DNA of 64,000 nucleotides from Leptolyngbya sp. NIES-2104. GTDB taxonomy: Bacteria > Cyanobacteriota > Cyanobacteriia > Leptolyngbyales > Leptolyngbyaceae. The DNA lies in NCBI RefSeq assembly GCF_001485215.1, contig NZ_BBWW01000001.1, positions 5,022,001 through 5,086,000 of the forward strand. The letters are read 5' to 3'. Both the position numbers and the translations under genes were made by a program. The notes under the pieces were generated by a model. The model ran no database searches, was not told where the DNA came from, and was given only the letters and a program-made list of their open reading frames with translations. Of this stretch, positions 795 through 63,133 are shown piece by piece. Numbering within the stretch: position 1 is the first letter of the stretch; every line of letters starts with the position of its first letter.

Positions 795-3208
795 AGCGAT
801 TTTTAGTGTGCTTTGTCTTGGGTTGGTTGATGGTCTTGGGAATCAATCGATCGACGTTTGGGGTGGTGAAGTCGTTTGAATCGTATCGCTCATCGCATTC
901 ACCCGCCCCGGAATGGAATTCGGGGCTAATCGAACGAAGTCCACTGAAGGGGACTGAAAGCCGAATTGCATCTCTTCAGTCAGTTTCAACTGACTTCGCA
1001 CTGTTAGCCCCGAATTCTATTCCGGGGCGGGTCAAAAACGCAAGCGAAGAGACTGACTACATCTCCCAATCTTTTTCTAACGCTCAAACCCTCGATTCAC
1101 AAGCCCAACAATTTCTAGAACGCGGAGATGCCGAAAGCGCTCTCAAATCCTGGCAACAAGCCGAAATTCTCTATCGAAAAATCGATCGACGAACCGAAGC
1201 ATTAGGCACCCAATTAAATCAAGCCAAAACGCTCCAAACTCTGGGAGCATTTCGCCGCGCCAAATTGCTATTGATGGAGATCCAAACTTCATTAATGCAG
1301 CAACCAAACACCGCTTTGAAAGTCAATGGCTTACTGACACTCGGCAATATCTTGAGATTAGTCGGAGAATTCAAACAATCTCAAGCAGTCTTAGAACAAA
1401 GCTTAGCGATTAGCACTGAACCCGCAGACATTCAATCAGCACAGTTTCACATCGGAAATACACTCCTTGCACAGCAGCAATTAGAAGCAGCTCTTGATCG
1501 ATTTCAACAAGCCGCGAAACAATCAGGTCATGTTCAGATTCCGGCTCAACTCAGACAGATTAAGCTGTTATTGCAGCTCGATCGACATTCTGAAGCAGAA
1601 AAACTCCTGCCAGCAATCCGATCAAATCTCGAATCTCTTCCACTAAAATCTAGTACCATCTACGCCCGAATTGAATTCGCGGAATGTTTGGCTAAATTCA
1701 CTCCCACTTCAGCAGTAGAACAATTCGCGATCGCAATCCATCAATCTCAGAAACTTAGCAATCCGCGCACAGAATCTTATGCGATCGGTCGATTAGCCCA
1801 CCTCTACGAACAAACGAAACAATGGCAAGAAGCACAACAACTCACACAGAGAGCACTAAAGATCTCAGAGCAAATTAACGCGCCTGATATCTTGTATCAA
1901 TGGCAATGGCAATCTGGCAGACTGTGGAATAAATTAGGCGATCGACAATCTGCAACGATCGCTTACACCGACGCAGTTAAAACACTCGAAAGCCTGCGAA
2001 ATGATTTAGTTTCAATCTCGTCTGAGGTGCAGTTTTCATTTCGCGAACAGGTTGAACCTGTGTATCGTGAATTCGTCGATTTGCTACTTCAGCAAAGTTC
2101 TGAGGCGAATTTGATTCAAGCGCGACAGGTGATCGAATCCCTGCAACTCGAAGAACTCAATAACTTTTTCCGAGAAGCTTGTCTGACTGCGGTTGCTCGT
2201 CAGATTGATCAAGTCGATCGAACTGCCGCAATCTTCTATCCGATTATTTTGCACGATCGATTAGAAGTGATTGTTTCCTTACCGAATCAATCTCTAAAAC
2301 ATTATTCAACCACGCTACCTCGTGCAGAGATCGAATCAAGCATTGATCGAATGATTCAATCGATGCGATCGACTTCGTTTGAATCTGAACGATTAACGAT
2401 CGCTCGAAAACTCTACCGCTGGTTGATTCAGCCCGTAGCGAAAGATCTTGAATCTGTTCAGACTTTAGTTTTTGTCCTAGATGGCTCACTTAGAAAGGTT
2501 CCAATCGCGGCATTGCACACCGGAGAGCAGTATCTAGTCGAGAAATATGCGATCGCGGTTACTCCTAGTCTGGAATTGTTCAGCCCTCGACCACTGCCTA
2601 GAGAGAATTTAACCGCATTAGTTGCAGGACTGAGTGAAGCCAATCAAGGAGCAGTCGCGCTACCAGGAGTTCAGCAGGAGGTCATTCAAATTGCCAATAA
2701 AGTCAGTGCAACAGTGCTGAAAAATCAGGCATTTACGAACCAAGCGTTGAAAGAAAAACTCAAAACAAATCCATTCTCGATCGTGCATTTAGCAACCCAC
2801 GGACAATTTAGCTCTTCCGCTGAAAATACTTATATTCAAACTTGGAATGGGCGATTAAACGTTGACGATTTGCGATCGCTCTTAACTCAGCGAGATGTGC
2901 CGGACTCGTTGCCGATCGAACTCTTAGTGTTAAGTGCGTGTCAGACTGCAGAAGGCGACGATCGAGCAGCACTAGGAATTGCAGGGGTCGCCATTCGATC
3001 AGGGGCACGAAGTACACTCGCTTCACTTTGGATGGTCAACGATCGTTCGACTGCAAGCTTTGTGACTCAGTTTTATCAAGGCTTAATTCGCGATCGACTT
3101 TCCAGAGCCGAAGCAGTTCGACAAGCTCAGTTAGCTTTACTCAAAACCCCAGAATATAACCATCCCTATTACTGGGCAGCATTTACGCTGATTGGCAATT
3201 GGTTATGA
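791..3208 (+). CDS. Secreted TPR-CHAT domain protein with a repeat element inserted in frame
   Basis: An 805-residue protein. The start at ATG 791 is preferred over a TTG at 773 because it overlaps the upstream stop as ATGA and gives a clean signal peptide (MKRFLVCFVLGWLMVLG). Residues about 90-400 are helical TPR-like repeats; residues about 490-805 form a CHAT domain, a caspase-fold module. The expected catalytic pair is visible: His670 in HLATHG and Cys717 in LSACQTA. Residues 38-80 or so are encoded by a dispersed palindromic element (901-1032) that keeps the frame open, lying in the linker after the signal peptide. Neighbours are a TpsA exoprotein upstream and DUF928 and CHASE2 genes downstream. 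A role in processing or sensing an exported exoprotein is inference; the fold assignment is firm. Confidence 0.88.
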   Translation: MKRFLVCFVLGWLMVLGINRSTFGVVKSFESYRSSHSPAPEWNSGLIERSPLKGTESRIASLQSVSTDFALLAPNSIPGRVKNASEETDYISQSFSNAQTLDSQAQQFLERGDAESALKSWQQAEILYRKIDRRTEALGTQLNQAKTLQTLGAFRRAKLLLMEIQTSLMQQPNTALKVNGLLTLGNILRLVGEFKQSQAVLEQSLAISTEPADIQSAQFHIGNTLLAQQQLEAALDRFQQAAKQSGHVQIPAQLRQIKLLLQLDRHSEAEKLLPAIRSNLESLPLKSSTIYARIEFAECLAKFTPTSAVEQFAIAIHQSQKLSNPRTESYAIGRLAHLYEQTKQWQEAQQLTQRALKISEQINAPDILYQWQWQSGRLWNKLGDRQSATIAYTDAVKTLESLRNDLVSISSEVQFSFREQVEPVYREFVDLLLQQSSEANLIQARQVIESLQLEELNNFFREACLTAVARQIDQVDRTAAIFYPIILHDRLEVIVSLPNQSLKHYSTTLPRAEIESSIDRMIQSMRSTSFESERLTIARKLYRWLIQPVAKDLESVQTLVFVLDGSLRKVPIAALHTGEQYLVEKYAIAVTPSLELFSPRPLPRENLTALVAGLSEANQGAVALPGVQQEVIQIANKVSATVLKNQAFTNQALKEKLKTNPFSIVHLATHGQFSSSAENTYIQTWNGRLNVDDLRSLLTQRDVPDSLPIELLVLSACQTAEGDDRAALGIAGVAIRSGARSTLASLWMVNDRSTASFVTQFYQGLIRDRLSRAEAVRQAQLALLKTPEYNHPYYWAAFTLIGNWL
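901..1032 (+). repeat. Palindromic element A1, inside the CHAT gene
   Basis: This is a 132-bp copy of element family A. The two ends (ACCCGCCCCGGAATGGAATT at the left and its near-complement ending GGGGCGGGT) form a long outer stem. Two inner hairpins follow: AGTCC...GGACT at about 939-956 with loop TGAA, and AGTCAGT...ACTGACT at about 979-996 with loop TTCA. At 132 bp it is exactly 44 codons long and contains no stop in the reading frame used by the host gene. Close relatives lie between genes at 37875, 41995 and 62877. Confidence 0.85.
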
Positions 3209-3248
3209 AACCGACGCTATCAAACCTAAATTTGGAGAATAAACGACG

Positions 3249-3947
3249 ATGAACTTCAGCACAACTCTAACGACTTTAATCGTGTTCTCTGCGTTATCTG
3301 GTCAAGCTCAAATCGCGCTGGCAAGCGCATTTGATCCTCCTCCTGGACAAGGAGAACCTGGAAGTACAGCGGGGGGTGCTTCTCGTCCTTCTCGACCCAC
3401 TTGTCTTGACTCAGACACGTTTACCGTTTTTGCGCCTAAAACTTATCTTGGCTTAACGACTCAAGCCCGTCCGACCTTCTGGATTTATTTGCCATCTGGT
3501 CGGGCGAAAATGTTGGAGTTTAGTGTTTTCGATCGACAACGCAAAGGAATCTATCAAACTCAAATCGCGATCGAGAACAAAAGCGGACTGGTGAAAATTA
3601 CTTTACCTGAAACCGCACCTGCTTTAAACTTCAATCAGTCGTACAATTGGACAGTTGCTCTAGTCTGTAATTCCAAGCGTCGGACTGAAGATTGGGTGAT
3701 CGGGGGTTGGATTGCGCGGCAAGCTCCAACGGCTGAACTTCAACGAGAATTTAATCTCGCACTGACCGATCTCGATCGCGCTAGGCTCTATGCTCAATCC
3801 CAATTTTGGTATGATGCAATCTCATTGTTGATTACTTCAGATCAGTCAAGTTCTAAAGCCTTTAAAGATCTGTGGTCATCAACGATTCAAGCTGCGGGAT
3901 TAGACACAATTGATAATCCACACACTCAAACAATCGTGAATCGATGA
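3249..3947 (+). CDS. DUF928 family secreted protein
   Basis: A 232-residue protein with an N-terminal signal-like hydrophobic stretch (residues 5-24). The GQGEPGSTAGGASRP segment followed by CLD is what I recognise as the start of the DUF928 domain, which then continues with a beta-rich region containing PTFWIYLP. Function of the family is unknown; members are common in cyanobacteria beside CHAT and exoprotein genes. It lies 40 nt after the CHAT gene and its TGA overlaps the ATG of the CHASE2 kinase, so the three are probably co-transcribed. It probably acts in the periplasm, on the same side of the membrane as the CHASE2 sensor domain. Confidence 0.75.
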   Translation: MNFSTTLTTLIVFSALSGQAQIALASAFDPPPGQGEPGSTAGGASRPSRPTCLDSDTFTVFAPKTYLGLTTQARPTFWIYLPSGRAKMLEFSVFDRQRKGIYQTQIAIENKSGLVKITLPETAPALNFNQSYNWTVALVCNSKRRTEDWVIGGWIARQAPTAELQREFNLALTDLDRARLYAQSQFWYDAISLLITSDQSSSKAFKDLWSSTIQAAGLDTIDNPHTQTIVNR

Positions 3948-6418
3948 TACTGCGATCGAATCGAATTCAATCCTTTCTCAGGGCTTCTAAACTCGGAGCA
4001 ATCGCAGTCGGAATCTCAGGTGCAACGATCGGACTTCAATGGACAGGTGTATTTCAATTGTTAGAGTGGGCAATGCTTGATCAGTGGTTTCGACTGCGCC
4101 CGCTCGAACCGATCGAAGTTCCGATCGTATTTGTCACGATTTCAGAATCTGATCTGTCTCAGCTCCAACGCTTTCCCGTGAGCGATCAAACGTTGTCGAT
4201 CGCCATCGAAACAATCAAGCGTCAGAAGCCAACGGTGATCGGGTTGGATCTCTATCGCAATCTTCCAGTAGCACCAGGGCACGAAAAACTTTTGCAGACG
4301 TTTGCTTCGACTCCGAATCTGATTGGAATTGCCAAAGCGGTCGGAGATGCCAGCGGAGATTCAGTAGAGCCGCCTCCGATTTTGCGCGATCGCGATCAGG
4401 TGGGAAATAGTGATTTGGTGTTAGATGCAGATGGCAAGATTCGTCGGGGTTTAATCTCAATCCAGCGCCAGGGTAGAACGCGACTCGCTTTAGGAACGAA
4501 GTTAGCACTGTTTTATCTCAAGTCAAAAGGGATCGAACCGAAACGGACAGCAAGCGGTGAGGTTCAACTGGGGAAAGCGCTCTACCGCCCAATTTCATCA
4601 AATGTGGGTGGGTATGTTCGGGCGGATGTGGGTGGATTTCAGATTTTGTTGAACTATCTCAGACCCCGGAAGACGATTCCCAGAGTGTCAATCAATGATG
4701 TATTAGAGAATCGAATTTCGCCGGAATTAATGCGCGCTCGCATTGTTCTGATCGGCTCGACCGCTGAGAGTGTGAGCGGCGATCGCTTTTATGTGCCGTA
4801 CTCGATGCAGCCGAAAGAAGCTTGGTTTGGTATGGAGATTCACGCCAATCTGACCGCTCAGTTGATCAGTGGCGCGATCGACGGACGCACTCCGCTTTCA
4901 GAACTACCAGAAGCTTTAGAATGGCTCTGGATTTTGGTTTGGGGCAGTCTTGGGACGGTAATGGGTTGGCGGCTTTATCTTCGTCGGGTTGTGCTGTTAA
5001 TCCCGATTTTCGTCTTACTTCTTGCTGCAACTTCTTATAGCTTGTTCTGGTTGGGCTGGTGGGCGATCGTTGTTTCCCCGTTGGTTGCTTTTATGGCGGC
5101 TGGATCACTCAGTCGAGGTTATTGGGTGTGGCGCCAGTTAAAAGACGCGAATCAAGCTTTAGAACTCAAAGTGTTAGAGCGTACTGAGGAACTTCAGAAC
5201 AAGAACACTGCACTTGAACGAGCGAAACTTGAAGCTGAAGCGGCAAATCAAGCGAAAAGTACATTTTTAGCTTCGATCAGCCACGAGCTACGAACCCCTC
5301 TAACAGCGATTTTAGGATTTAGTGAGCTATTAAAGTACTCAACTCGGCTTAACTTAGAAGAACAGGAAAACATTGCAATTATCAATCGTAGTGGGTTACA
5401 TCTACTGGATTTAATCAATGATGTTTTGGAACTAGCGAAAATTGAAGCGGGATCTGTTCAGGTGGAGTCTGAAAGCACAGATTTGATTGAATTGCTGAGA
5501 ACGGTTGAAAGCGTGATTCGGGGAACTGCGATCGCAAAACATCTCACGTTCCAAACCGACTACGCGCTAGATTTACCGCCTCTAATCAAAACAGATTCTC
5601 GCAAACTCCGTCAGATCTTGATCAATCTCTTGAGTAATGCCGTGAAGTTCACGGGTCAAGGAACAGTGACGCTACAAGTAAGAGCGATCGAGAATCAACT
5701 GACATTCCGAATCATTGATAGTGGAGTAGGCATCGCACCGAAAGAACTCGATCAGCTATTTCAGCCATTTTTCCAAGCGGAAGCCGGACGAAACTTGCAA
5801 AGAGGGACGGGATTAGGATTATCAATCAGTCGGCGATTCGCTCAGTTAATGGGCGGCGAAATTGCAGTCGAAAGCCGTCTTGGGCAGGGAAGTACGTTTA
5901 CAGTGACCCTGCCATTTGAAACCGCGATGGTTGCTCCCACCTCGTTCGATCCGCTCAATTCTGCCTCCAAAACAACCTGGACTCTTTCTCCGGATCAATT
6001 GCAAATCAGGGTATTAATCATTGATGATAGTCCTGAAATTCGTCAATTTCTAGAGCAACTGTTAGAGCGAGTCGGCTTTGACGTGCGATCGACTCGAAGT
6101 GGAGCCGATGGACTCATACAATGGCAGATTTGGCAACCTTCCCTAGCATTAATTGATCTACAGCTACCCGATACAGATGGTTATACGATCGCGCAGCAAA
6201 TTCGCGCTGCGAGTCAACAGCGAGAGATTGACGAATCTACCATTTATGGTGATACGATTCTGATTGCCCTAACTGCAAACGTTTTCCACACCGATCCATC
6301 CGCCATCTACACTGCCGGGTTCGATGATATTGTTTGGAAACCCTTTCGCGAAGCAACACTGCTCACCAAGATGGCTCAGCACTTGGGGATTTGCTATCAG
6401 GATGAAGGGAAATTGTGA
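3944..6418 (+). CDS. CHASE2-domain hybrid sensor histidine kinase
   Basis: An 824-residue membrane sensor. An N-terminal membrane anchor (around residues 15-35) precedes an extracytoplasmic CHASE2 domain (about 40-310) and three closely spaced C-terminal transmembrane segments (about 325-390). A coiled linker leads to the HisKA dimerisation helix with phospho-acceptor His447 in SHELRTPL, then an ATPase domain with N, G1 (DSGVGI) and G2 (GTGLGLSI) boxes. A receiver domain at about 685-815 has phospho-acceptor Asp738 in LIDLQLPDTDG. The ATG overlaps the DUF928 stop (ATGA). The family senses unknown periplasmic cues; here the neighbours suggest envelope or exoprotein status. A REC-PAS protein follows 82 nt downstream as possible partner. 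Confidence 0.9.
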   Translation: MILRSNRIQSFLRASKLGAIAVGISGATIGLQWTGVFQLLEWAMLDQWFRLRPLEPIEVPIVFVTISESDLSQLQRFPVSDQTLSIAIETIKRQKPTVIGLDLYRNLPVAPGHEKLLQTFASTPNLIGIAKAVGDASGDSVEPPPILRDRDQVGNSDLVLDADGKIRRGLISIQRQGRTRLALGTKLALFYLKSKGIEPKRTASGEVQLGKALYRPISSNVGGYVRADVGGFQILLNYLRPRKTIPRVSINDVLENRISPELMRARIVLIGSTAESVSGDRFYVPYSMQPKEAWFGMEIHANLTAQLISGAIDGRTPLSELPEALEWLWILVWGSLGTVMGWRLYLRRVVLLIPIFVLLLAATSYSLFWLGWWAIVVSPLVAFMAAGSLSRGYWVWRQLKDANQALELKVLERTEELQNKNTALERAKLEAEAANQAKSTFLASISHELRTPLTAILGFSELLKYSTRLNLEEQENIAIINRSGLHLLDLINDVLELAKIEAGSVQVESESTDLIELLRTVESVIRGTAIAKHLTFQTDYALDLPPLIKTDSRKLRQILINLLSNAVKFTGQGTVTLQVRAIENQLTFRIIDSGVGIAPKELDQLFQPFFQAEAGRNLQRGTGLGLSISRRFAQLMGGEIAVESRLGQGSTFTVTLPFETAMVAPTSFDPLNSASKTTWTLSPDQLQIRVLIIDDSPEIRQFLEQLLERVGFDVRSTRSGADGLIQWQIWQPSLALIDLQLPDTDGYTIAQQIRAASQQREIDESTIYGDTILIALTANVFHTDPSAIYTAGFDDIVWKPFREATLLTKMAQHLGICYQDEGKL

Positions 6419-6500
6419 ACATCTGAACCGATTTAACTCTTTCCCGTTAAAATAACCTCTAGCATCGCTCAGAACATCAATTTGTGCCCGGTTACCTCTT

Positions 6501-7619
6501 ATGCCTCCGATCCCAGTCTCCTCGCAAGTCCCTGAAACCATTTGCCTGTCACCTGTGACAGATTACTACATTCGCAAACTGATTCAGCAGAATTTTTCTC
6601 AACTGGTATCGCTTCAACCGGCTCAAGGACTGGAGACAGATCTCGGTCGTAGCTCGATCGCACTCTTTAACCGACTCACTTCGCTTCATTCTAATGTGAT
6701 GTCGATCGCGCAAACGCTCGATACTCTAGTGCTTCAACATCAAACGCTACGGACTCAAGGCGGTAGATATCAATCAGAACTCAAGCAAGTCGAAGCACAA
6801 ATCCTTCATTGCTTCGCACTCAAAAGAACTCAGACGATTGCTGAAGCGAAAATATTAGTAATCGATGACACTCCTGAAACATTACGCTTGCTCACAACAA
6901 CGCTCAGTGAACAAGGCTATGCGGTTGAGCAGCTATCGAGTGGAGCAGCGGCACTAAAGCACGTTCGCGATCGACAGCCTGATTTGATCTTGCTTGATGT
7001 GATGATGCCCGGAATCGATGGCTACGAAGTGTGCGAACGATTAAAGCTCGATCCCCAAACCTGTCACATTCCCATCTTGTTTCTTAGTGCAGTCGATGAT
7101 GCGCTAAATAAAGTGAAAGCCTTTGATCTCGGTGGCGTGGATTATGTGACCAAACCGTTTCAGCTTGAAGAAGTGTTAGCCCGAATTGAATATCAACTGA
7201 AACTGTATCAGCGATCGAAACAACAACGAGAAGCAGGACAAACCTATCAAAACTTTTTTGAAAATGCCGTTGAGGGAATGTTCCAAACGACGCTCAACGG
7301 GCGCTTTCTGCGGGCAAATCAAGCATTAGCAGAACGACTCGGCTATGATTCACCGCAAGATTTGATCGATTCAGTGCAAGACATTGCAAGACAGCTTTAC
7401 ACGATTCCGCAACGTCGATCGCAGTTTGTTCTTTACCTTGAACAATACGGACAAACCGAAGAGTTTGAAGCCGAAGTGTTTTGTAAGAATGGCGATCGGA
7501 TTTGGATTCGTGAGAAAGCGCGGGCTGTTCGGGATGCGGAAGGTAATTTGCAGTTTTATGAAGGCACCGTTCAAGATATTACAGAGCAGAAGCGGTTAGA
7601 AGCAGTACAGGGAATTTAG
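6501..7619 (+). CDS. Response regulator with receiver and PAS domains
   Basis: A 372-residue cytoplasmic protein. Residues about 1-110 form a helical N-terminal region without a recognised domain. A receiver domain follows (about 115-235) with acidic pair IDD, phospho-acceptor Asp166 in LLDVMMPGIDG and the conserved Lys in KPF. A PAS domain with a PAC tail covers about 245-365 (FFENAVEGMFQTT, YEGTVQDITEQKR). There is no HTH, kinase or cyclase output, so it may act by protein contact. It is probably part of the operon with the CHASE2 hybrid kinase. The gene ends 4 nt before the stop of the convergent AAA gene. Confidence 0.85.
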   Translation: MPPIPVSSQVPETICLSPVTDYYIRKLIQQNFSQLVSLQPAQGLETDLGRSSIALFNRLTSLHSNVMSIAQTLDTLVLQHQTLRTQGGRYQSELKQVEAQILHCFALKRTQTIAEAKILVIDDTPETLRLLTTTLSEQGYAVEQLSSGAAALKHVRDRQPDLILLDVMMPGIDGYEVCERLKLDPQTCHIPILFLSAVDDALNKVKAFDLGGVDYVTKPFQLEEVLARIEYQLKLYQRSKQQREAGQTYQNFFENAVEGMFQTTLNGRFLRANQALAERLGYDSPQDLIDSVQDIARQLYTIPQRRSQFVLYLEQYGQTEEFEAEVFCKNGDRIWIREKARAVRDAEGNLQFYEGTVQDITEQKRLEAVQGI

Positions 7620-7623
7620 CAGG

Positions 7624-19833: not shown

Positions 19834-20075
19834 TAAGCAATGACAGTTCAGAGGACATTTGAGAAGTATAAAAAGTCTTTTCGCTTCGATTGCCTCCCGC
19901 CCTGAAATGAATTTCGCGCTACCCGTGGAAAGTCTACTGAAGTAGACTGGGAGCCAGTTTGAGGTTCTTAGTCCATTGAAATGGACTTGCGCCGATTAGC
20001 CCGAAATTCATTTCAGGGCGGGTTGCGGCAACAACGAATACTTTTCAAACATCCTCTAAACAATGACAGTTCAGA
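19834..20075. repeat. Direct repeats flanking element B1
   Basis: TAAGCAATGACAGTTCAGA at 19834-19852 and TAAACAATGACAGTTCAGA at 20057-20075 are 19-base direct repeats with one mismatch. They bracket element B1, overlapping its terminal bases, and look like a duplicated insertion site. Confidence 0.8.
19851..20056. mobile_element. Palindromic MITE-like element B1
   Basis: A 206-bp element with terminal inverted repeats GAGGACATTTGAGAAGTAT and its counterpart ending ACTTTTCAAACATCCTC. Inside are a 25-bp outer stem starting CCCGCCCTGAAATGAATTTC at 19896 and ending GGGCGGG, enclosing AGTCTAC-TGAA-GTAGACT and AGTCCAT-TGAA-ATGGACT hairpins. It carries no ORF of its own and no transposase. It lies between the acyl-CoA dehydrogenase gene and the glycosyltransferase, and supplies the last codons of the latter. 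Confidence 0.85.
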
Positions 20076-33044: not shown

Positions 33045-33143
33045 CGCTAGTTCGACAAGTCTTTCCACTTCGATTCCGTCTCGCCCCGAATTCCATTCCG
33101 AGGCGGGAGTGAACGAAGCGGGGGATTTCAAAATACGCTAGTT
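33044..33143. repeat. Half-copy of palindromic element A with flanking direct repeats
   Basis: CGCCCCGAATTCCATTCC followed by GAGGCGGG (about 33082-33107) is a single right-hand arm of element family A, without the left arm. The 9-base sequence ACGCTAGTT occurs at both edges (33044-33052 and 33135-33143), which may mark the old insertion site. Confidence 0.6.
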
Positions 33144-37874: not shown

Positions 37875-37997
37875 CCCGCCCCGGAATGGAATTCGGGGCT
37901 AGTAGAACGAAGTCCACTAAAGGGGACTGGTGTTTCAGGTTCTTTAGTCCTGAAGGGACTTCGCACTGTTAGCCCCGAATTCTATTCTGGGGCGGGT
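37875..37997. repeat. Palindromic element A3 between mysB and mysC
   Basis: A 123-bp family A element starting CCCGCCCCGGAATGGAATTC and ending GGGGCGGGT, with inner hairpins AGTCC...GGACT (loop TAAA) and AGTCC-TGAA-GGGACT. It occupies most of the 202-nt gap inside the mys operon. Its minus-strand reading creates an artificial N-terminal extension of mysC. Confidence 0.85.
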
Positions 37998-41955: not shown

Positions 41956-41960
41956 TTCTA

Positions 41961-42159
41961 GGGTGTGTTTCAGAACTCTTTGCTTCGTTCATGTCCGCCC
42001 CGGAATGGAATTCGGGGCTAACAGTGCGAAGTCAGTTGAAACTGACTGAAGATGCTGGATTTGGCTGTTAGTCCCCTTTAGTGGACTTCGTTTGATTAGC
42101 CCCGAATTCCATTCTGGGGCGAGTGAGCAACGAGAGCGAGAAGGCTTTAAAACACACTC
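41961..42159. mobile_element. Palindromic MITE-like element A4
   Basis: Family A element with outer ends GGGTGTGTTT and AAAACACACTC, and a core at 41995-42123 (CCGCCCCGGAATGGAATTCG ... CCATTCTGGGGCG). Inner hairpins are AGTCAGT-TGAA-ACTGACT (42031-42048) and AGTCC...GGACT (about 42070-42087). It fills the gap between two convergent genes and its last bases reach the muramidase stop codon. Confidence 0.82.
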
Positions 42160-43508
42160 TAAGCCGCATTTCGCCAATAGTTATAAGCTTCTGCTAGCTT
42201 TTCATCATAGCGATTCACTCGGTAGCTTTCACCGTTATACCGCAGTGCAAATCCTGCCCAATCGCGGTTAATCAAAAAGCGATCGAGCCGATTGCTCTTA
42301 ATAAAATTGAACATTGCCGTGAGTTGTTTCCCTTCGCTCTCGTGCATATCCCGCACAAAAGATTCCACATCACGATAGCCCGCAGCACCATGATTAAAGC
42401 CCATAATTTGTCCCAGTCCCCAAGAAGCCGATTTCAATGCTCCGGCTCGATTCAAATTCGAGGCTCGATAGATTCGATCCCATTCTCCCGCCCCACCGAT
42501 ATAAAGGGCACGATTCCAAACAGGGCTTGAAATATCACCGTCACTCTCATCGAACTGTCCATTGGTAAACTCTGAAAACCAATGAGCTTCAAACAAAATC
42601 TTCGGTCTACCATCGCGCAAGAATCCTGATCCAGCAGCTTCTACATCAACCACGGCGCGAACTGCCGCCACTTCACAGCCAATCGATCGAGCAACATCAA
42701 TAAAATTTTGGGATGTCAACTGTCGAATTGGACGAGTCACCGGAATTCGAGGAATCGCAGGCTCTAGTAGCATCAGTGCCGCGATCGGGGATAGCTCATT
42801 CGAGTTGAATCCATACGCTCTAGAGAACTCAACATATCCCGCCTGAGTTCGACCGCCCCAAAGTCCGTCGATCGGACCCGGATTGTGTCCCATTGCGTCT
42901 AATCCTTGCTGAATTTGGCGCGTGAGACGTTGGTCGGCTGAGATTCGGCTCATTTGCCAGGTGAAGACATCCGACGCGATCGGGCGTAATCCAGTTGGAA
43001 TGGCTTGAGTCGGCGGAGCAAATCGAGGTCCAGACGGGGCTGGAGTTGGGGTTGCAGTAACGGGTGGACGCGGCGTTGGAGTGGGTGCTGGGGTTGGGGT
43101 TGCAGTAGCAGGTGGGCGTGGTGTGGGAGTGGGTGCCGGGGTTGGGGTTGCAGTAACGGGTGGACGAGGTGTAGGGGTTGGTGTGGCGGGAGGTTGAGCA
43201 ATTGTGGGAGGTGTCGGGGTAGGGACTGGAGTCGGTCGTGGGGGTGGGGTTGGCGTAGTGGGACGAGGTTGGATTCCGAGCAACACTTGAGCCGCACGGG
43301 GACTGATTACATCTGCTTGTAGTCGATTTCGGGTTGCAAAGGCAGTAAAAGCGCTTTGAGTTCGGTTGCCCCAAATACCGTCTACAAGTCCCGGTTGAAA
43401 TCCTAATGAAGTGAGTCGCTGCTGAACTTCTCTCGTTAAGTTCTGATTGTTGCGAACAGTCGTTAGTGCGACGATCGCAGTTCCTGATGCAATAGTATTC
43501 AGATTCAT
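42159..43508 (-). CDS. N-acetylmuramidase with two peptidoglycan-binding domains
   Basis: A 449-residue protein. Two peptidoglycan-binding-1 domains (about residues 18-80 and 185-250; both with GxxPGxxDGxWGxRTQ) are separated by a Pro/Thr-rich linker built from PTPTP repeats. The C-terminal domain (about 265-449) is the N-acetylmuramidase (PF11860) found in phage endolysins: probable catalytic Glu in VDVEAAGSGF, then KILFEAHWFSEFT and SASWGLGQIMGFNH. It should cleave peptidoglycan glycan strands. There is no signal peptide, which is odd for a cell-wall enzyme unless it relies on a phage-like or other release route. No phage genes adjoin it. Confidence 0.88.
   Translation of the reverse strand: MNLNTIASGTAIVALTTVRNNQNLTREVQQRLTSLGFQPGLVDGIWGNRTQSAFTAFATRNRLQADVISPRAAQVLLGIQPRPTTPTPPPRPTPVPTPTPPTIAQPPATPTPTPRPPVTATPTPAPTPTPRPPATATPTPAPTPTPRPPVTATPTPAPSGPRFAPPTQAIPTGLRPIASDVFTWQMSRISADQRLTRQIQQGLDAMGHNPGPIDGLWGGRTQAGYVEFSRAYGFNSNELSPIAALMLLEPAIPRIPVTRPIRQLTSQNFIDVARSIGCEVAAVRAVVDVEAAGSGFLRDGRPKILFEAHWFSEFTNGQFDESDGDISSPVWNRALYIGGAGEWDRIYRASNLNRAGALKSASWGLGQIMGFNHGAAGYRDVESFVRDMHESEGKQLTAMFNFIKSNRLDRFLINRDWAGFALRYNGESYRVNRYDEKLAEAYNYWRNAA
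43038..43200. repeat. 48-bp tandem repeat in the muramidase linker
   Basis: Units starting GTAACGGGTGGACG or variants begin at 43057, 43105 and 43153, spaced exactly 48 bp (16 codons), with a partial unit before. They encode the PTPAPTPTPRPP linker. This is a coding minisatellite that can change length in frame. Confidence 0.85.
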
Positions 43509-47039: not shown

Positions 47040-47261
47040 GTGGGAAAGATTCGTTGGCGATTACGGGTGGTCATGGCAGACCGAAAAATGACCAATAAAA
47101 CACTGGCTCAAATGATGAACATGAACCCAGTGAGTATTTCAAAATTGAAGAATGCCGATGATATGCCAGCGATCGGTGGTGAAACACTCGCAAAACTTTG
47201 TGATGCCCTTAATTGCACCCCTGCCGATCTAATCCAATACGTCCCCGATTCAGACGAGTAA
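47040..47261 (+). CDS. Cro/CI-type (XRE) helix-turn-helix regulator
   Basis: A 73-residue protein starting at GTG 47040. Almost the whole length is one HTH: KIRWRLRVVMADRKMTNKTLAQMMNMNPVSISKLKNADDMPAIGGETLAKLCDALNCTPADLIQYVPD, the shape of the YozG/HTH_26 single-domain regulators. It may control its own transcription or that of neighbours. It lies 386 bp after the hicBA pair but is not evidently linked to it. Confidence 0.85.
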   Translation: MGKIRWRLRVVMADRKMTNKTLAQMMNMNPVSISKLKNADDMPAIGGETLAKLCDALNCTPADLIQYVPDSDE

Positions 47262-47269
47262 TCTAAACT

Positions 47270-47503
47270 CTTCAGTCCCCTTCAGCGGACTTCGCACCGT
47301 TAGCCCCGAATTCCATTCCGGGGCGGGTTCGCAACGAGAGCGAAAAAGCACGATCGACCTAAATCTCAACTTACGATCGTGTTTCCTCACAAATCGCTTT
47401 CATCCCCGAATTCCATTCCGGGGCGAGTTCGCAACGAGAGCAAAAAAGCACGATCGACCTAAATCCCAACTTACGATCGCGTTTCCTCACAAATCGCCTT
47501 CAT
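47270..47503. repeat. Element-A remnant and 100-bp tandem duplication
   Basis: A right-hand arm of palindromic element A (about 47270-47327) is followed by two head-to-tail 100-bp units, 47304-47403 and 47404-47503, which differ at five positions by my count. Each unit begins CCCCGAATTCCATTCCGGGG and ends ...CTCACAAATCGCYTTCAT. Unit 2 includes the last codons and stop of the nuclease-like gene (47471), so unit 1 carries a detached copy of that 3' end. Confidence 0.88.
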
Positions 47504-51015: not shown

Positions 51016-51022
51016 CATCCCA

Positions 51023-51289
51023 AGGTGGTGCAGGCATCTTGCCTGCTCTTGGAGGGTGTTGAAGAAATATAAAAGGCTCCTTCGCTACGTTCTGCTCCCG
51101 CCCTGAAATGAATTTCGGGCTAATGGTGGAAAGTCTACTGAAGTAGACTCAGAGCTAGTTTCAGGTTCTTAGTTCTTTTCAAAGGACTTTCGTCGATTAG
51201 CCCGAAATTCATTTCAGGGTGGGAATTGCAACGAACGACAACTTTTCAAACATCCTCCTGGGTTTGGGCGGACAAGCTGTCCACCCCAG
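51023..51289. repeat. Palindromic repeat C2, split by element B2
   Basis: The left part (51023-51051) has the hairpin GCAGGCATCTTGCCTGC; the right part (51258-51289) has CTGGG...CCCAG arms around GGACAAGCTGTCC. Joined together the two resemble C1 at 30347, which shares GGCATCTTGCC in reverse orientation. Element B2 lies exactly between the two parts. Confidence 0.65.
51052..51257. mobile_element. Palindromic MITE-like element B2
   Basis: A 206-bp element with left end GAGGGTGTTGAAGAAATAT and right end ACTTTTCAAACATCCTC. Its outer stem starts CCCGCCCTGAAATGAATTTC near 51098, enclosing AGTCTAC-TGAA-GTAGACT and AGTTCTT-TTCA-AAGGACT hairpins. It has no ORF of its own and interrupts repeat C2. 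Together with the prk terminator it fills the 515-nt gap after prk. Confidence 0.85.
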
Positions 51290-55417: not shown

Positions 55418-55447
55418 AGAGATGCTGGATTTTGGCATCTCTTTTTT
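55418..55447 (+). terminator. Intrinsic terminator of valS
   Basis: AGAGATGC (55418-55425) and GCATCTCT (55435-55442) form a perfect 8-bp stem followed by a T-run, 27 nt after the valS stop. Confidence 0.9.
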
Positions 55448-55709: not shown

Positions 55710-56168
55710 ATGCTGCACTTGGCGCAAGTTCAAAAAAAAGGCTATCTAGGCAAGGCAGGATTGCGCTTACTGGCTGCTCAAAAGTCAGAGCACATTTGGA
55801 CGAAACTACCTGAAGAGGAAACGGTACTTTCCGCTGAGGCAAATGCTTACAGTGATGGACTGCTCGTGCTGGTCGAAATCTCCAGCAGCAATCAGATTTT
55901 AGATATTCGCGAAGCCAAAGATTGGGTGATGGACTTGGTGCAGTGCTACTTGACGTATGGGTTTACGCCTAGCTCGTTGCAGCAGGAGAAAGAGCGCTCA
56001 GAACAGTGGCGGCAGTCATTGACGCTAGAACAGCAAGAATTAGCGCGAACAAAGATCGAACTTGAGGCACGCCGAGAACAAATCCAAGAACTCGAAGAAG
56101 AACTCAAAAGCGAGAAGAAACAGCTAGAGATGCTGATGTCGCAGGTGAAATCTCAGAACCAGGATTAG
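55710..56168 (+). CDS. Conserved hypothetical coiled-coil protein
   Basis: A 152-residue protein. Residues 1-90 form a compact alpha/beta part (HLAQVQKKGYLGKAGLRLLAAQKSEHIWTKLPEEETVLS...), and residues 95-150 are a long charged coiled coil (RTKIELEARREQIQELEEELKSEKKQLEMLM). I recognise this pattern from unnamed cyanobacterial proteins but know no function. The stop overlaps that of the convergent O-antigen-ligase-like gene by 4 nt. Confidence 0.7.
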   Translation: MLHLAQVQKKGYLGKAGLRLLAAQKSEHIWTKLPEEETVLSAEANAYSDGLLVLVEISSSNQILDIREAKDWVMDLVQCYLTYGFTPSSLQQEKERSEQWRQSLTLEQQELARTKIELEARREQIQELEEELKSEKKQLEMLMSQVKSQNQD

Positions 56169-57394: not shown

Positions 57395-57396
57395 TA

Positions 57397-57603
57397 GAGG
57401 GTGCTTGAAAAGTATAGAAAGTCTCTTCGCTTCGATTGCCTCCCGCCCTGAAATGAATTTCGGGCTAATGGTGGAAAGTCTACTGAAGTAGACTGGGAGG
57501 CAGTTTCAAGTTCTTAGTCCATTTCAATGGACTTGCGCCGATTAGCCCGAAATTCATTTCAGGGCGGGGCGTTGCAACGAACGACAACTTTTCAAACATC
57601 CTC
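57397..57603. mobile_element. Palindromic MITE-like element B3
   Basis: A 207-bp element from GAGGGTGCTTGAAAAGT to ACTTTTCAAACATCCTC. TTA is present on both sides (57394-57396 and 57604-57606), a possible 3-bp target duplication. The inner structure is a 25-bp outer stem, AGTCTAC-TGAA-GTAGACT and AGTCCAT-TTCA-ATGGACT. It exactly fills the space between the start codon of the O-antigen-ligase-like gene and the stop codon of the YaaW-like gene. Confidence 0.88.
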
Positions 57604-58482
57604 TTAAACGGGTTCAAAGCAGTCCGATCGCGTTAACCGAATTTGAGCCAAAGCGAAAATGATTGGAATCACGCGCCCGTAATTTGTGGCGATCGCTCTC
57701 CAGCCCAAATCTGCCAGAAACCAAGTCCACAATGCCGATCCCAAAAAGGCAAACGCTGCACGAGTCGCCCCATATCGCGCCGTTGCCATCGTCATCCCTC
57801 GTTTTGCTAATTGCAGCGAAACCTGAGTTTGAATCTGAGTTGCAGCGACAATTCCACCTTGTGCGATCGCTTGTTGTGCCATTTGATAACGTGCAAAGTG
57901 CAGGGCAAACTGTCGCGCAATCTGTTCTAGCAAAAGAGGCTGTAGTAGGGTATTCACCGCTAAGGCACCTCCGCCTTTAGCCACGAGCGACATCGGATTC
58001 TTCTGCAAAGACAGCGGTAATTCTTCAGCAAGACCCGTATCGATCAGCGCATTTTTCACTCGTCGGGTCAAAGCGGTTTGCTCGGACACAGGAAGTTGCT
58101 TCCAGGCGCGGTTTAATAGACTGAGGAAGATTTCAGCTTCTAAATCGGTCGTAGACATTGATCCCGTGTAGGGCAATTTCAGATAGCGGCAGACTTGGAT
58201 CAGAATTTGGCGGTAGCTCACTTGTCCGGTTCTACGGCGGAGGACTGTGATACCATCGGCTGCGAGGAAGCGGAATCGCTCATCGATCGCATCGAGCCAG
58301 TCTTCCCGCGATTGGCTTTGTAGATCGATCGGGTCAGTCGCGTTGACGTAATCCAGCGGGTTGAACTTCGGACGAAATAGAATTTCTGTCAGTTCGCGTA
58401 GTTCATCATCTGTCGCCAATTCCAAAGCGGCTCTAAACTCATCCACTGGTGGTCTTCCTCCCGATGCTGCTTCCAGATTCAT
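57604..58482 (-). CDS. YaaW-like family protein
   Basis: ATG 58482 gives 292 residues; a GTG at 58503 is a less likely start. The N-terminal DEFRAALELATDDELRELTEILF and the following segment (DWLDAIDERFRFLAADGITVLRRRTGQVSYRQILIQVC) match what I remember of YaaW/DUF3944-type proteins, in part called ubiquinol-cytochrome c chaperone-like. The C-terminal half has a glycine-rich region and a membrane-like helix (ARYGATRAAFAFLGSALWTWFLADLGW). Function is unknown. Its TAA stop forms one edge of element B3, so it is otherwise intact. Confidence 0.7.
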   Translation of the reverse strand: MNLEAASGGRPPVDEFRAALELATDDELRELTEILFRPKFNPLDYVNATDPIDLQSQSREDWLDAIDERFRFLAADGITVLRRRTGQVSYRQILIQVCRYLKLPYTGSMSTTDLEAEIFLSLLNRAWKQLPVSEQTALTRRVKNALIDTGLAEELPLSLQKNPMSLVAKGGGALAVNTLLQPLLLEQIARQFALHFARYQMAQQAIAQGGIVAATQIQTQVSLQLAKRGMTMATARYGATRAAFAFLGSALWTWFLADLGWRAIATNYGRVIPIIFALAQIRLTRSDCFEPV

Positions 58483-58537
58483 TCTACATAAGCTAGACGA
58501 CACATCGGATATTACTTGTTTCAGGATTTCTCAAAGT

Positions 58538-59581
58538 ATGCTCGATTCCCAATTTGATATCGCGATCGTGGGTGCCGGGATGTCCGGTTTAACCTGTGCT
58601 CAGATGCTCCACCAAGCAGGCTATAAGGTGGTTGTGATCGACAAGTCCCGTGGTTTGGGTGGAAGAATGGCAACTCGCCGTTTGCAGGGAACGCACGCGG
58701 ATCATGGCGTTTGTTATCTCAAGCCAAAATCCGCTGAGTTTCAGGACTTGTTGAATCAGTTGGTCGATCGCAAAATCATTCGCGTCTGGACGGATACGAT
58801 TCACGAATTGGATGAAGGCAGAATTCAACCGCCACAAAAGCGAGCTTCGTGTTACGCGGCGATGAATGGGATTACGATGATCGCGAAATTCCTCTCGATC
58901 GGCTTAACGCTGAGATTGAACCATCGAGTCGAACGCATCGAAGAGCAGAACGGCTGGAATCTTTACTGTGAATCGGGCGAAGTGATTTCAGCGAGTGCGG
59001 TGATTGTGGCGATTCCGGCTCCACAGGCGGCGATGTTGTGTGGAACGTATATTGAGCGGTTGACCTCGATCGAGTATTCGCCGTGTATTAGTGCGATCGC
59101 GGTTTATCCGACCGAGCGACAGGCGGATGTGGAACGATTGGATTGGAAAGCGATCGTGTGTCTGGCAGATTCAGATTTAGGCTGGATTGGTATTGATAGC
59201 ACAAAGCAATTGAATCCGGGACAACCTGCGATCGTGATTCAAAGTAATGCAACGTTTGCCGCACAACATTTAGAAGATCTTGATTTGCAGCAAGTCGGAG
59301 AGCAATTGTTAAAACGGGCGGCAGAAGTAGCAGAACCGTGGTTTACCAGTCCGGAGGTGCTGCAAGTTCATCGCTGGCGGTATGCGTTTCCGATTAATCC
59401 TGTTTCTGAAAAATTCTTAGCTGCGACGACTTCTAATCCGATGATTTGCACCGGGGATTGGTGTGGTGGAAATCGGGTTGAGAATGCGTTTCATGCTGGG
59501 CTTGCGACTGCGAATCATTTAAACGGGCAACTCAGCAACCAGCCGCTACCTAAACAGTTTTGGACACAAATTAGTGGGTAA
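58538..59581 (+). CDS. Renalase-like NAD(P)/FAD-dependent oxidoreductase
   Basis: ATG 58538 gives 347 residues; a longer frame from 58361 lies over the divergent gene and is rejected. An FAD-binding Rossmann motif (DIAIVGAGMSGLTCAQML at 7-24) and GLGGRMATRRL near 39-49 are the hallmarks of renalase-like amine oxidases, which oxidise or epimerise NAD(P)H isomers in animals. The C-terminus has FAD-contact GDWCGGNRVENAFHAGLATAN. Only 55 nt separate it from the divergent YaaW-like start, so the promoters must overlap. Substrate unknown. Confidence 0.85.
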   Translation: MLDSQFDIAIVGAGMSGLTCAQMLHQAGYKVVVIDKSRGLGGRMATRRLQGTHADHGVCYLKPKSAEFQDLLNQLVDRKIIRVWTDTIHELDEGRIQPPQKRASCYAAMNGITMIAKFLSIGLTLRLNHRVERIEEQNGWNLYCESGEVISASAVIVAIPAPQAAMLCGTYIERLTSIEYSPCISAIAVYPTERQADVERLDWKAIVCLADSDLGWIGIDSTKQLNPGQPAIVIQSNATFAAQHLEDLDLQQVGEQLLKRAAEVAEPWFTSPEVLQVHRWRYAFPINPVSEKFLAATTSNPMICTGDWCGGNRVENAFHAGLATANHLNGQLSNQPLPKQFWTQISG

Positions 59582-59688
59582 TTTCTCTAAATTTTGAATT
59601 TCCCTAATGGATAATCGCAGACCTGTGATTTAACTATACAAGGGCGTGGTTTCTTATGCTCTAACGTGTTATGGACGGGTAGTACAAA

Positions 59689-61401
59689 ATGGTTTTCCGA
59701 TCGCTGTTTCAAGCTGTTCTACTGTTCGGTATTTTTGCCCCGGTTGCTTCGGTGGCTCAGCCCGTTGTGCCAATTCCGCCTCAAGATTTGCCGCGCCCTT
59801 TACCGCCGCAACCTTCCCCAGAGCCGCAAATTCCAACCCCGCTTCCGCCTCCGGATCAATTGCTGCCTCAGCCCATTACGCCGCCTTCAACGATCGAGAC
59901 TCCAGGCAATATTCCCGATACGATCCAGGTCAAACAGTTTGATGTGGTCGGTAGTACAGTATTTAGCGCGAAAGATTTTGAGCCGATCACAAAGCCGTAT
60001 CTGAATCGAAATGTTTCGTTTGCGGAATTATTGCAATTACGATCGGCGATCGCTGAACTTTATATCAAAAATGGATATGTCACGTCTGCTGCGGTATTGC
60101 CGCCTCAAGTGCTCACCGGGGGCGTAGTCAAAATTCAAGTGATCGAAGGCTCGATCGAGCAAATCAATGTAATTGGCACGCGTCGCCTGAATCCGGCTTA
60201 TATTCGGAGCCGCATCGGGCTTTCTGTGCAAGCGCCGTTAAATGTAAATCGCTTGCTCGAAGGCTTACGACTTTTGCAACTCGATCCGCTGATCGCTTCG
60301 ATTTCAGCCGATTTGCAGGCGGGAACCCGTCCTGGAACCAGTGTTTTACAAGTGACGATTACGGAAGCGAAAACATTCTCGGTGACTCCAACGCTCGATA
60401 ATGCTCGATCGCCGAGTGTTGGATCGTTCCGTCGCCAACTTGAACTGTCACAGGCGAATTTACTCGGTTTAGGAGATGGGCTGAGAGCGAGTTATACCAA
60501 TACTGACGGCAGTAATGGAGTTGATTTGAGCTATACGGTGCCGCTCAATCCCCGAAATGGAACGTTACGGCTTGCGTATGGCAGTACTCGGAGCCGAGTG
60601 ATTGAATCGCCGTTTGACGTTTTGGATATTCAGGCGCGATCTCGCTACTACGAATTGACGTTTCGCCAGCCGATCGTGCAGCGTCCGACCAATGAATTTA
60701 CGTTAGGGCTAACGTTCTCGCGTCAAGAAAGTGAGACAGAATTAGGTATCGATAATATTGGTCCGTTTCGGTTGTCGCCGGGAGCCGATGAGCAAGGTCG
60801 AACGAGAATTTCAGCGCTGCGATTTTTTCAGGAATATGTACAGCGTAGTGAGCGACAAGTTTTCGCCGCTCGATCGCAGTTTAGTTTTGGTTTGGGCTTG
60901 TTCGATGCGACGATCAATGATCAGGCTCCTGATAGTCAGTTTTTTACATGGCGCGGACAAGCTCAATGGACAAGGCTGTTAGCGCGGGATTCATTATTGT
61001 TAGTGCGGGGCGATTTGCAGTTAAGCGATCGTACTTTAGTGCCGTTAGAACAGATCGGTATCGGCGGCGTGGATACGGTTCGCGGCTATCGGCAAGATGC
61101 GCTCCTGACCGATAACGGATTCTTGTTCTCATCGGAAGTGCGGTTGCCGATTTTGCGATCGGGACGTGCTTTAGTTCAAGTCACACCTTTTATCGATGTG
61201 GGAACCGCTTGGAATCGCAGCGGGGCGAATCCAAATCCAAATACTTTGGTCGGGGCGGGATTCGGATTTTTGTGGCAGCAAGGGGATGATTTTTCAGCGC
61301 GGATTGATTTTGGATTTCCGCTGGTGTCGATCGAGGGCGAAAGACGCAGCTTGCAAGAAAAGGGCATTTATTTCTCGATCCGCTATAGTCCATCGTTCTA
61401 G
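59689..61401 (+). CDS. TpsB outer-membrane transporter (ShlB/FhaC/HecB family)
   Basis: A 570-residue protein with signal peptide (residues 1-23), a Pro-rich linker (about 25-75), POTRA domains (about 80-230, with VKQFDVVGSTVFSAKDFEPITKPYLNR and IEQINVIGTRRLNPAYIRSRIG) and a 16-strand beta-barrel (about 240-570) including the VRGYRQDALLTDNGFLFSSEVRLPI motif and a C-terminal aromatic residue (Phe570). It exports a TpsA exoprotein across the outer membrane. The only TpsA candidate in the window is the partial gene at its left end, 59 kb away; linkage is inference. Confidence 0.93.
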   Translation: MVFRSLFQAVLLFGIFAPVASVAQPVVPIPPQDLPRPLPPQPSPEPQIPTPLPPPDQLLPQPITPPSTIETPGNIPDTIQVKQFDVVGSTVFSAKDFEPITKPYLNRNVSFAELLQLRSAIAELYIKNGYVTSAAVLPPQVLTGGVVKIQVIEGSIEQINVIGTRRLNPAYIRSRIGLSVQAPLNVNRLLEGLRLLQLDPLIASISADLQAGTRPGTSVLQVTITEAKTFSVTPTLDNARSPSVGSFRRQLELSQANLLGLGDGLRASYTNTDGSNGVDLSYTVPLNPRNGTLRLAYGSTRSRVIESPFDVLDIQARSRYYELTFRQPIVQRPTNEFTLGLTFSRQESETELGIDNIGPFRLSPGADEQGRTRISALRFFQEYVQRSERQVFAARSQFSFGLGLFDATINDQAPDSQFFTWRGQAQWTRLLARDSLLLVRGDLQLSDRTLVPLEQIGIGGVDTVRGYRQDALLTDNGFLFSSEVRLPILRSGRALVQVTPFIDVGTAWNRSGANPNPNTLVGAGFGFLWQQGDDFSARIDFGFPLVSIEGERRSLQEKGIYFSIRYSPSF

Positions 61402-61443
61402 ATTTGGTGCGACACTAGATCAGATTTGGCGGACGGTTGGGAC

Positions 61444-62607
61444 ATGGTGCAAGACAGTCAGAAAGAGCGATCTTGGTTTTATTGGTTTACGGTGCCGATT
61501 TATCCGTATAGCCAACGCCGTACGATTCGACGGGAAGTAGTCAAAGACTCGGTTTGGGTCTTTGAGCAGCTTCAAGGCGTTTTCTATGTGGTTACACCGA
61601 TTCGGATGACCGTTGTAAAACTCGATGCGGGTGGGCTTTTGGTGTATGCGCCTGTGGCTCCGACGATCGAGTGTTTGCGATTGCTAAATGAAATTGTTTC
61701 CGTTCACGGAGATGTTCAATACATCATTTTTCCAACTGCTTCCGGTTTGGAACATAAAGCATTTGTGCCGCCGTTCGCTCGAAAGTATCCGAATGCTCAA
61801 ATTTATATTGCACCGGATCAATGGAGTTACCCGGTTAATCTGCCGTTGTCGTGGTTAGGATTTCCCAAGCATCGGACGCATTTACTCGATGGTCGATCAA
61901 TTCCGTTTGGCGATCAGTTTGAATACGCGAAACTCGGTCCAATTCGGTTGGGATTAGGACCGTTTGAGGAAATTGCGTTATTCGATCGACGTTCTAAAAC
62001 GCTGCTCGTTACGGATTCTGTCCTTTCCGTTCCAGAAGTCGCGCCCGAAATTATCCAGATCGATCCGTATCCTTTGCTGTTTCACGCTCGCGAGTCTGGA
62101 ACCGAGCAGATTGAAGATACTGAAGCAAATCGCCGCAAAGGATGGCAGCGAGTCGCATTGTTCACGTTTTATTTTCGTCCTAGCGGGTTGGATATCGCTG
62201 ATTTAATCCCATCGGTGCGAGAAGTGGTTAAAGCACCGGATCGATCGAAGAAAGCCTTTTTCGGCTGGTATCCGTTTCATTGGAAATTGGGCTGGCAGCG
62301 ATCGTTTGAGGCGTTACGAAAACATCGATTGATCGTGGCTCCGATTTTGCAGCGATTGATTCTAAATCGTGAACCGCAGATCGTGATTGATTGGGCAGAA
62401 AAGGTTGCGAGTTGGGACTTTGAGCGGATTATTCCTTGTCACTTGGATGCCCCGATCGATGCTAATTCTCAGGAGTTTCGCGCTGCATTCAGTTTTTTAG
62501 AAAAGGATGGCAGAGCTTTACCGGATGAAGACTTTGAACTTTTGAAAGAGATTGAGAAAGGCTTGATCAAAACGAAAGTAACTCCACCTGCGAAAGAGAA
62601 GTTGTAA
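61444..62607 (+). CDS. DUF4336 domain protein
   Basis: ATG 61444 gives 387 residues; an upstream TTG at 61426 is possible. The DUF4336 pattern is clear: VFEQLQGVFYVVTPIRMTVVKLDAGGLLVYAPVAPTIECLRLL, GDVQYIIFPTASGLEHKAFVPPFARKYPNAQIYIAPDQWSYPVNLPL and later ALFDRRSKTLLVTDSVLSVP. The arrangement resembles a degenerate metallo-beta-lactamase fold, with His in GLEHK and C-terminal IIPCHLD as possible metal ligands; that is inference. It follows tpsB by 42 nt and may be co-transcribed. Its TAA is the left edge of element B4. Confidence 0.85.
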   Translation: MVQDSQKERSWFYWFTVPIYPYSQRRTIRREVVKDSVWVFEQLQGVFYVVTPIRMTVVKLDAGGLLVYAPVAPTIECLRLLNEIVSVHGDVQYIIFPTASGLEHKAFVPPFARKYPNAQIYIAPDQWSYPVNLPLSWLGFPKHRTHLLDGRSIPFGDQFEYAKLGPIRLGLGPFEEIALFDRRSKTLLVTDSVLSVPEVAPEIIQIDPYPLLFHARESGTEQIEDTEANRRKGWQRVALFTFYFRPSGLDIADLIPSVREVVKAPDRSKKAFFGWYPFHWKLGWQRSFEALRKHRLIVAPILQRLILNREPQIVIDWAEKVASWDFERIIPCHLDAPIDANSQEFRAAFSFLEKDGRALPDEDFELLKEIEKGLIKTKVTPPAKEKL

Positions 62608-62818
62608 GAGGGTGTTTGAAAAGTATAAAAAGTCTCTTCGCTTCGATTGCATCCCGCCCGGAGCTAAACCTCTGGGCTAATCAGCGCAACCCTGCTAAAG
62701 CAGGCTCAAGCGCAAGTTCTGCGGCTCTTAGTCCCGTTCAGGGGGCTTTCCTCGGTCAGCCCGGAGGTTCAGCTCCGGGCGGGTGAATGCAACAAACGAC
62801 GACTTTTCAAACACCCTC
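62608..62818. mobile_element. Palindromic MITE-like element B4 with a divergent core
   Basis: The termini are those of family B (GAGGGTGTTTGAAAAGTATA ... ACTTTTCAAACACCCTC), 211 bp in all, with TAA on both sides (62605-62607 and 62819-62821). The core differs: CCCGCCCGGAGCTAAACCTC pairs with its complement ending GAGCTCCGGGCGGG-like sequence, enclosing CCTGC-TAAA-GCAGG and AGTCCCG-TTCA-GGGGGCT. The pairing is kept although the bases differ from B1-B3. Confidence 0.85.
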
Positions 62819-63133
62819 TAACTAAGCGTGAATTTGGTGGTTTTTTTCGGCTTTGTTACTCACCCGCTTCGTTGTCAGCCCGCTCCGGAATAAAATTCGG
62901 GGCTAACAGTGCGAAGTCCCTTCAGGACTGCAAGCCTTGTAATGATTCGCATTCAACCCCCTTCAGTGGGTTTCGCACGATCAGCCCCGAATTTTATTCC
63001 GGGGCGAGTCAGCATCGAAGCGGAAAGATTTATCGAATTCACACTATCTCGCAATACTCGATCGAATTCGTATCCTCTGCAACGTCCTGCAAAGAAAGCG
63101 CTATCATAGCCTTTGTCATAACACCGAACGGCT
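62819..63133. other. Intergenic region with element A6
   Basis: This 315-nt gap before secD holds a family A palindromic element (62877-63009, separate entry). The rest, about 60 nt before and 125 nt after the element, shows no gene; it must contain the secD promoter or leader. Confidence 0.6.
62877..63009. repeat. Palindromic element A6 upstream of secD
   Basis: A 133-bp family A element starting CAGCCCGCTCCGGAATAAAA and ending TTATTCCGGGGCGAGT. The inner hairpins are weaker: AGTCC-CTTCA-GGACT (62915-62929) and CCCCCTTCAGTGGG. It lies 58 nt right of element B4, so two element families sit side by side. Confidence 0.82.

Follow-up and report, generated by a model that had tools for sequence, protein, structure and literature searches.

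The window analysed here is a stretch of 64,000 nucleotides from the cyanobacterium Leptolyngbya sp. NIES-2104 (contig NZ_BBWW01000001.1, positions 5,022,001 to 5,086,000), and scattered through it are eight full copies and two remnants of a short repeat whose core consists of an outer stem and two hairpins (hairpins 1 and 2). The cores are of three types (A, B and B4) and the recognisable ends of the elements carry one of three kinds of terminal inverted repeat (TIR1, TIR2 or TIR3). The B elements proved to be miniature inverted-repeat transposable elements (MITEs) of an insertion sequence (IS), and across the family the cores and the ends assort independently. A first, sequence-only reading of the window had listed the same eight full or near-full copies and two remnants; a covariance model located them all, the remnants weakly, and nhmmer recovered nine of the ten, missing the remnant at 33080. 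The copies are:

902..1031, plus strand: A core, in frame within the CHAT/TPR protein gene at 791-3208; ends not recognisable.
19851..20056, plus strand: B element (MITE) with TIR1 ends; core 19896-20022, flanking triplets TCA/TAA.
33080..33107, no strand assigned: single outer-arm remnant; covariance model, E 0.3 (weak).
37875..37996, plus strand: A core with a short hairpin 2; one end weakly TIR3-like.
41959..42161, minus strand: A element with TIR2 ends; core 41994-42123.
47214..47327, no strand assigned: half-copy remnant; covariance model, E 0.005 (weak).
51052..51257, plus strand: B element with TIR1 ends; core 51097-51223, flanking triplets TTG/CTG.
57397..57603, plus strand: B element with TIR1 ends; core 57442-57568, TTA target duplication, site empty in relatives.
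62608..62818, plus strand: B4 element with TIR1 ends; core 62653-62783, the third core type.
62879..63008, minus strand: A core, both ends scored TIR3.

B copies are about 207 bp overall and lie between 17-bp terminal repeats (TIR1, GAGGRTGTTTGAAAAGT). With at most one mismatch, this pattern has 147 matches genome-wide (75 forward, 72 reverse) against 0 and 0 for the control. The same ends flank a 0.9-kb element encoding a transposase of 263 amino acids that matches DUF4096 (PF13340), DDE_Tnp_1 (PF01609) and the NCBI IS5-family transposase model NF033580. This IS5-type element is present in seven copies with transposases identical in protein, and all seven have GAGGGTG ends and matching 3-base flanks; a second IS, whose transposase is 44% identical, has similar ends. 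Both TIR1 ends could be located in 42 copies; 26 of these have the same 3-bp sequence on either side (TAA in 17, TTA in 7 and TCA in 2), and in 7 of the 42 the flanking triplet serves as stop codon to an open frame of 80 codons or more. The TAA duplication of the B4 copy at 62608..62818 lies at the stop codon of the gene at 61426-62607. Five same-genus genomes were searched for the copy at 57397, and all five lack it at the orthologous site, where the flanking genes are 1, -3, 13, 19 and 24 bases apart; the empty-site junctions were read in three of the five. The ends common to both elements, the duplicated TNA triplet and, for one copy, the empty orthologous site show that the B elements are MITEs of the IS5-type insertion sequence, and this ordinary cause, mobile mini-elements, explains the repeats. 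TIR1 elements shortened to 55 or 82 bp and lacking the hairpin core also occur (L062:8304-8358, L063:9863-9944, L064:9188-9269 and L065:4043-4124). Two loci (L128, L129) hold more IS5-like elements, whose ends are related or different (GAGGACGTTTGAGAAGTAG; CTAGAGGGTGTTATGCACTTT). A plasmid search with the B region from 19821 as query gave one Nostoc match, at query positions 566-1377, outside the element itself.

Relatives of DDE-type IS5 elements act on double-stranded ends. The IS5-type transposase would move the B elements by binding their termini as double-stranded DNA, and the earlier suggestion that the fold may be what a transposase recognises is not supported, the B copies sharing their 17-bp ends with a DDE-type element. 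A contrasting mode of movement is that of REPINs (doublets of repetitive extragenic palindromes), which would be moved single-stranded by a hairpin-recognising tyrosine transposase. Our elements resemble REPINs in being inverted doublets of small, locally palindromic arms, with compensatory hairpin changes, an alternative clover fold and a preference for gene ends (PMC3116915). They differ in their IS5-type ends and duplicated targets, and solo arms are few (six outside model hits in 986 kb). Moreover, an intact Y1/RAYT gene was not found in the genome, where the sole Y1 transposase match is partial and contains an in-frame stop, and there was no core in the 20 kb or the locus around that match (L087, L215). 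We therefore consider REPIN-like movement very improbable. The sequence-only reading had also held that such covariation is rare in known mini-elements, a view at odds with the description of compensatory hairpin changes as common in REPINs in the same source.

The genome comprises 6.39 Mb in five contigs. In a 400-kb sample of 20 evenly spaced stretches the covariance model found 14 full and two partial copies and nhmmer found 15, which extrapolates to about 220-240 full copies per genome. From 986 kb of the genome, partly chosen around known copies, we collected 99 full cores (49 A, 48 B and 2 B4), of which 98 were aligned, one truncated copy being excluded, to give 97 distinct cores. An exact-pattern scan named as relatives the cyanobacteria Phormidesmis priestleyi BC1401, Phormidium tanganyikae FI6-MK23, FACHB-63 and LEGE 13415 (of the Phormidesmis/Leptolyngbya kind). 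Relatives contributed 54 copies, 50 of them distinct after removal of four duplicates; in the combined set 7 of 149 copies failed to parse or were truncated, leaving 142. An A-element DNA query had matches at E ≤0.001 in all seven of the other genomes of the genus, in 9 of 27 from the rest of the family and in none of 23 from other families; the nine same-family matches are mostly weak, with two at 1e-16 or better.

The assortment of cores and ends is the less ordinary result and the part that deserves follow-up. Ends were scored at a cut-off that shuffled ends reached in 11 of 594 tests. Among the 49 A cores, 12 have TIR2 at both ends, 8 have TIR3 at both and 2 have TIR1 at both; the others have two different end types (2), one recognised end (16) or none (9). 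TIR1 is found at both ends of 39 of the 48 B cores, one has TIR2 at both ends, one a TIR3/TIR1 mixture, six a single recognised end and one none, and both B4 copies have TIR1 ends. A cores with TIR1 and with TIR2 ends have a core likeness of 0.85, close to the 0.86 seen within the TIR2 group, and an end likeness of 0.43, against 0.41 for random 20-mers. When A and B cores both with TIR1 are compared, the core likeness is 0.69 and the end likeness 0.77, and the likeness of the B core on TIR2 ends to other B cores is 0.87. Among the 50 distinct copies of the relatives, these three end types recur (TIR1 at both ends in 15, TIR3 in 4, TIR2 in 3 and a TIR2/TIR3 pair in 1, with one recognised end in 12 and none in 15). 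Cores and ends are independently assorted, the A core occurring with three kinds of end that are unrelated to each other, and a single end type with three cores. Such mixtures would arise if dispersed copies recombined, or underwent gene conversion, by way of the core they share, and the A elements with TIR2 and TIR3 ends may be moved by other transposases. A possible fourth end type, GAGCATTTCGTTCATCGCATTCA, was seen on A cores at two loci (L041, G000:C1:1091557; L111).

The three-stem layout gives standard pairs in 96.6% of 3927 cells of our 97 own cores, against 90.9% after shuffling. Change on both sides was seen in 18 of 42 pairs, a count reached in none of 500 shuffles, and on most measures the structure exceeded both shuffled and slid versions; one of the five measures, further pair types, was not above the shuffles (199 of 500). 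The shared architecture described by the sequence-only reading stands in this respect, but the elements reach beyond the cores, and each outer arm is a short inverted repeat in its own right; among relatives, arms belonging to one and the same copy are often different, yet each is able to fold alone. A rival fold, a long hairpin pairing hairpin 1 with hairpin 2, was rejected at 80.2% paired and a covariation of 0.065, which is the shuffled level; by energy this form is equal to or better than the two-hairpin form in the eight copies of the window. The assignments made for hairpin 1 need amending, since AGTCAGT/ACTGACT forms the first hairpin in the copy at 41961 but the second in the copy at 901, and the copy at 62877 has AGTCC/GGACT.

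Pairing kept while the sequence changes, the central claim of the sequence-only reading, is clear in hairpin 2; it is weaker in hairpin 1, which fails a tree-based null with independent changes on branches. Under this null, a rough one since the copies recombine and a single tree was used, and with a paired-count statistic that has little power for pairs differing once between subfamilies, 5 of the 28 testable pairs reached p < 0.05, and the two that survive correction are both in hairpin 2, at the floor of 1/601. The best outer-stem pair (p 0.0033) misses the corrected limit of 0.0018, and the compensating change reported for that stem is mainly fixed difference between subfamilies (pairs 8/136, 10/134, 20/124 and 22/123). 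Hairpin 1 likewise varies mainly through fixed subfamily differences, and much of the covariation signal as a whole is one A/B split; hairpin 1 of the A copies is also not clean, with column pair 45/52 unpaired in 48 of 97 rows and A·G in 46 cells. Among the 142 copies, pairs 5 and 6 of hairpin 2 are paired in 141 and 131, where 68 and 57 would be expected under independence (0 of 1000 simulations as high), and pair 5 of hairpin 1 is not significant (202 of 1000). When the hairpins were left out of the tree building, 41 changes are needed for pair 6 and 14 for pair 5, both upper bounds as the copies recombine. When the halves of hairpin 2 were swapped between copies, a copy's own half fitted far better (z -9.5 in own A, -4.7 in own B and -11.7 in relatives). 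For hairpin 1 the own half fitted better in two groups, the own A copies and the relatives (0 of 2000 permutations in each case); the z of +6.6 in B copies comes from loop letters within the halves, which some copies have in flipped form. Outer arms barely prefer their own partner (z -1.9, -2.0 and -1.3), and local arms show a modest preference in relatives only. The covariation is real but narrow.

Such a signal would be left if the hairpins were selected as DNA structures or protein-binding sites, in cruciform or single-stranded form and for example by a host factor, with hairpin 2 covarying because the fold is needed. The match of hairpin 2 halves within a copy and the excess of its pairs 5 and 6 are in keeping with this explanation, as is the conservation of the hairpin 1 sequence across genera. 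However, a fixed mismatch is tolerated in hairpin 1, there is hardly any preference of the outer arms for their own partner, and loop flips and inverted units (below) show DNA-level copying acting on the hairpins; we regard this explanation as unlikely.

Selection on a folded RNA, which the sequence-only reading had proposed, and template switching during DNA copying lead to different expectations: the former predicts more wobbles than A-C mismatches, a preferred orientation and one better-scoring strand, whereas from the latter one expects loops that are flipped and units that are inverted. The counts of G-T wobbles (78 cells in 18 distinct column/type cases) and of A-C mismatches (54 cells in 22 cases) are of similar size. 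Relative to flanking tandem genes, 16 copies have the same and 21 the opposite orientation (p 0.51). Both strands score with the covariance model, the chosen strand scoring higher as expected of a model built on it, and an Rfam search of the window gave no match at the gathering cut-off. A core acting as RNA, for example as a 3'-end stabiliser or regulator, would agree with the preference for gene ends: of 81 placed copies, 41 lie between convergent, 37 between tandem and 3 between divergent genes, where intergenic bases are 22% convergent, 54% tandem and 24% divergent. Purifying selection against insertions into genes and promoters would, however, leave just such a bias; only 2 of 93 copies away from piece ends lie inside open reading frames (ORFs) of at least 90 amino acids, though such ORFs cover 79% of the sequence. 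A role as folded RNA therefore appears quite improbable.

The marks of template switching are, in turn, recurrent. The hairpin 1 loop is flipped in 5 of 48 B copies, with five parsimony changes, and the hairpin 2 loop of the same 48 is normal in 28, flipped in 9 and otherwise in 11, with 18 changes among the three states. An asymmetric hairpin 1 was found inverted in the hairpin 2 slot in five copies (one own, four from relatives) and inverted within its own slot in one, and flipped outer arms were also observed. Arm homogenisation and spacer inversion are described products of template switching at short inverted repeats, or quasipalindromes (PMC8604942, PMC8794818), although here they are inferred from dispersed copies and not from parent and offspring. 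The flips and inversions, together with the lack of a clear wobble bias or of an orientation bias, favour template switching over RNA selection. Slips in DNA copying explain the covariation of hairpin 2 at least as well as a folded-RNA role, and the best reading of the signal is that short inverted repeats are kept up at the level of DNA. Much of the data agrees with inverted repeats being copied as units, which the sequence-only reading had itself named as the contrary case.

We therefore propose, with a probability of roughly 0.6, that the family consists of MITEs with a carried-along hairpin core, kept matched by template switching and mixed by recombination or conversion. The core would be a passenger; during replication the polymerase may switch template at a folded single strand and copy one arm into the other, which would yield changes in pairs, loops that are flipped and whole hairpins that are inverted.

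Several observations weigh against this proposal. Identical flanking triplets are missing in 16 of the 42 TIR1 copies, and the two rarer combinations of core and ends rest on two A copies and one B copy with both ends scored. An autonomous TIR2 or TIR3 element was not found with end patterns or a PF13340 family search, and candidate parents with end pairs 3.1 kb and 4.3 kb apart were rejected, as they enclose a gene for a TPS-domain protein and purine-synthesis-like genes. The A·G mismatch of hairpin 1 is uncorrected, its four-G form being kept by 42 of the 49 own A copies and by 18 of the 50 copies from relatives, and a three-G form by a further 12 of those 50; this persistence argues against fast correction everywhere and suggests a sequence constraint. 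Switching therefore does not account for everything, and it may be its sequence that maintains hairpin 1. A passenger core also has no obvious reason to persist across genera. A bolder but rather unlikely alternative is that the core is a lasting cassette that outlives its transposons, passing among end sets by conversion or recombination and being spread by several unrelated transposases through at least three genera (g1, g5 by strong matches, and others by weaker ones), with hairpin 1 having a function of its own and hairpin 2 being renewed by template switching.

Palindromic elements of Rickettsia occur inside genes, and the copy at 901 resembles them in lying in frame inside a protein gene. 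This CHAT-domain TPR protein gene splits around the core into a signal-peptide-like N-terminus and the body, and its orthologues in two genomes (G003, G004) have the same N-terminal start with the rest directly after it and no insert. Unlike the Rickettsia elements, only this copy was shown to lie in a real gene and most copies are intergenic. Elsewhere in the window, a 48-base direct repeat is present four times inside a minus-strand ORF (43036-43257), a 100-base tandem duplication of 95% identity (47304-47503) includes one outer arm, through which an arm of the remnant at 47214-47327 recurs at 47404, and the words CGATCG and GCGATCGC occur 345 and 56 times.

Like IS5-family MITEs, the elements are short, gene-free and numerous, with ends common to a genomic IS, a target duplication and a stable fold; they are unlike them in that their interior is common to elements with unrelated ends. 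A general review of prokaryotic MITEs (PMC10969869) cites Nezha, a cyanobacterial MITE. In the literature searched, five element strings were not found, nor were Leptolyngbya, insertion sequence and MITE found together, and the abstracts of work on Leptolyngbya and repetitive sequences look unrelated.

A functional RNA is often considered proven once compensatory changes are seen. The roughly 150 dispersed copies assembled here allow a direct comparison with template switching, because flips and inversions leave marks that RNA selection does not predict. If the exchange of ends on a shared core is true, it would mean that a mini-transposon can outlast the loss of its transposase.

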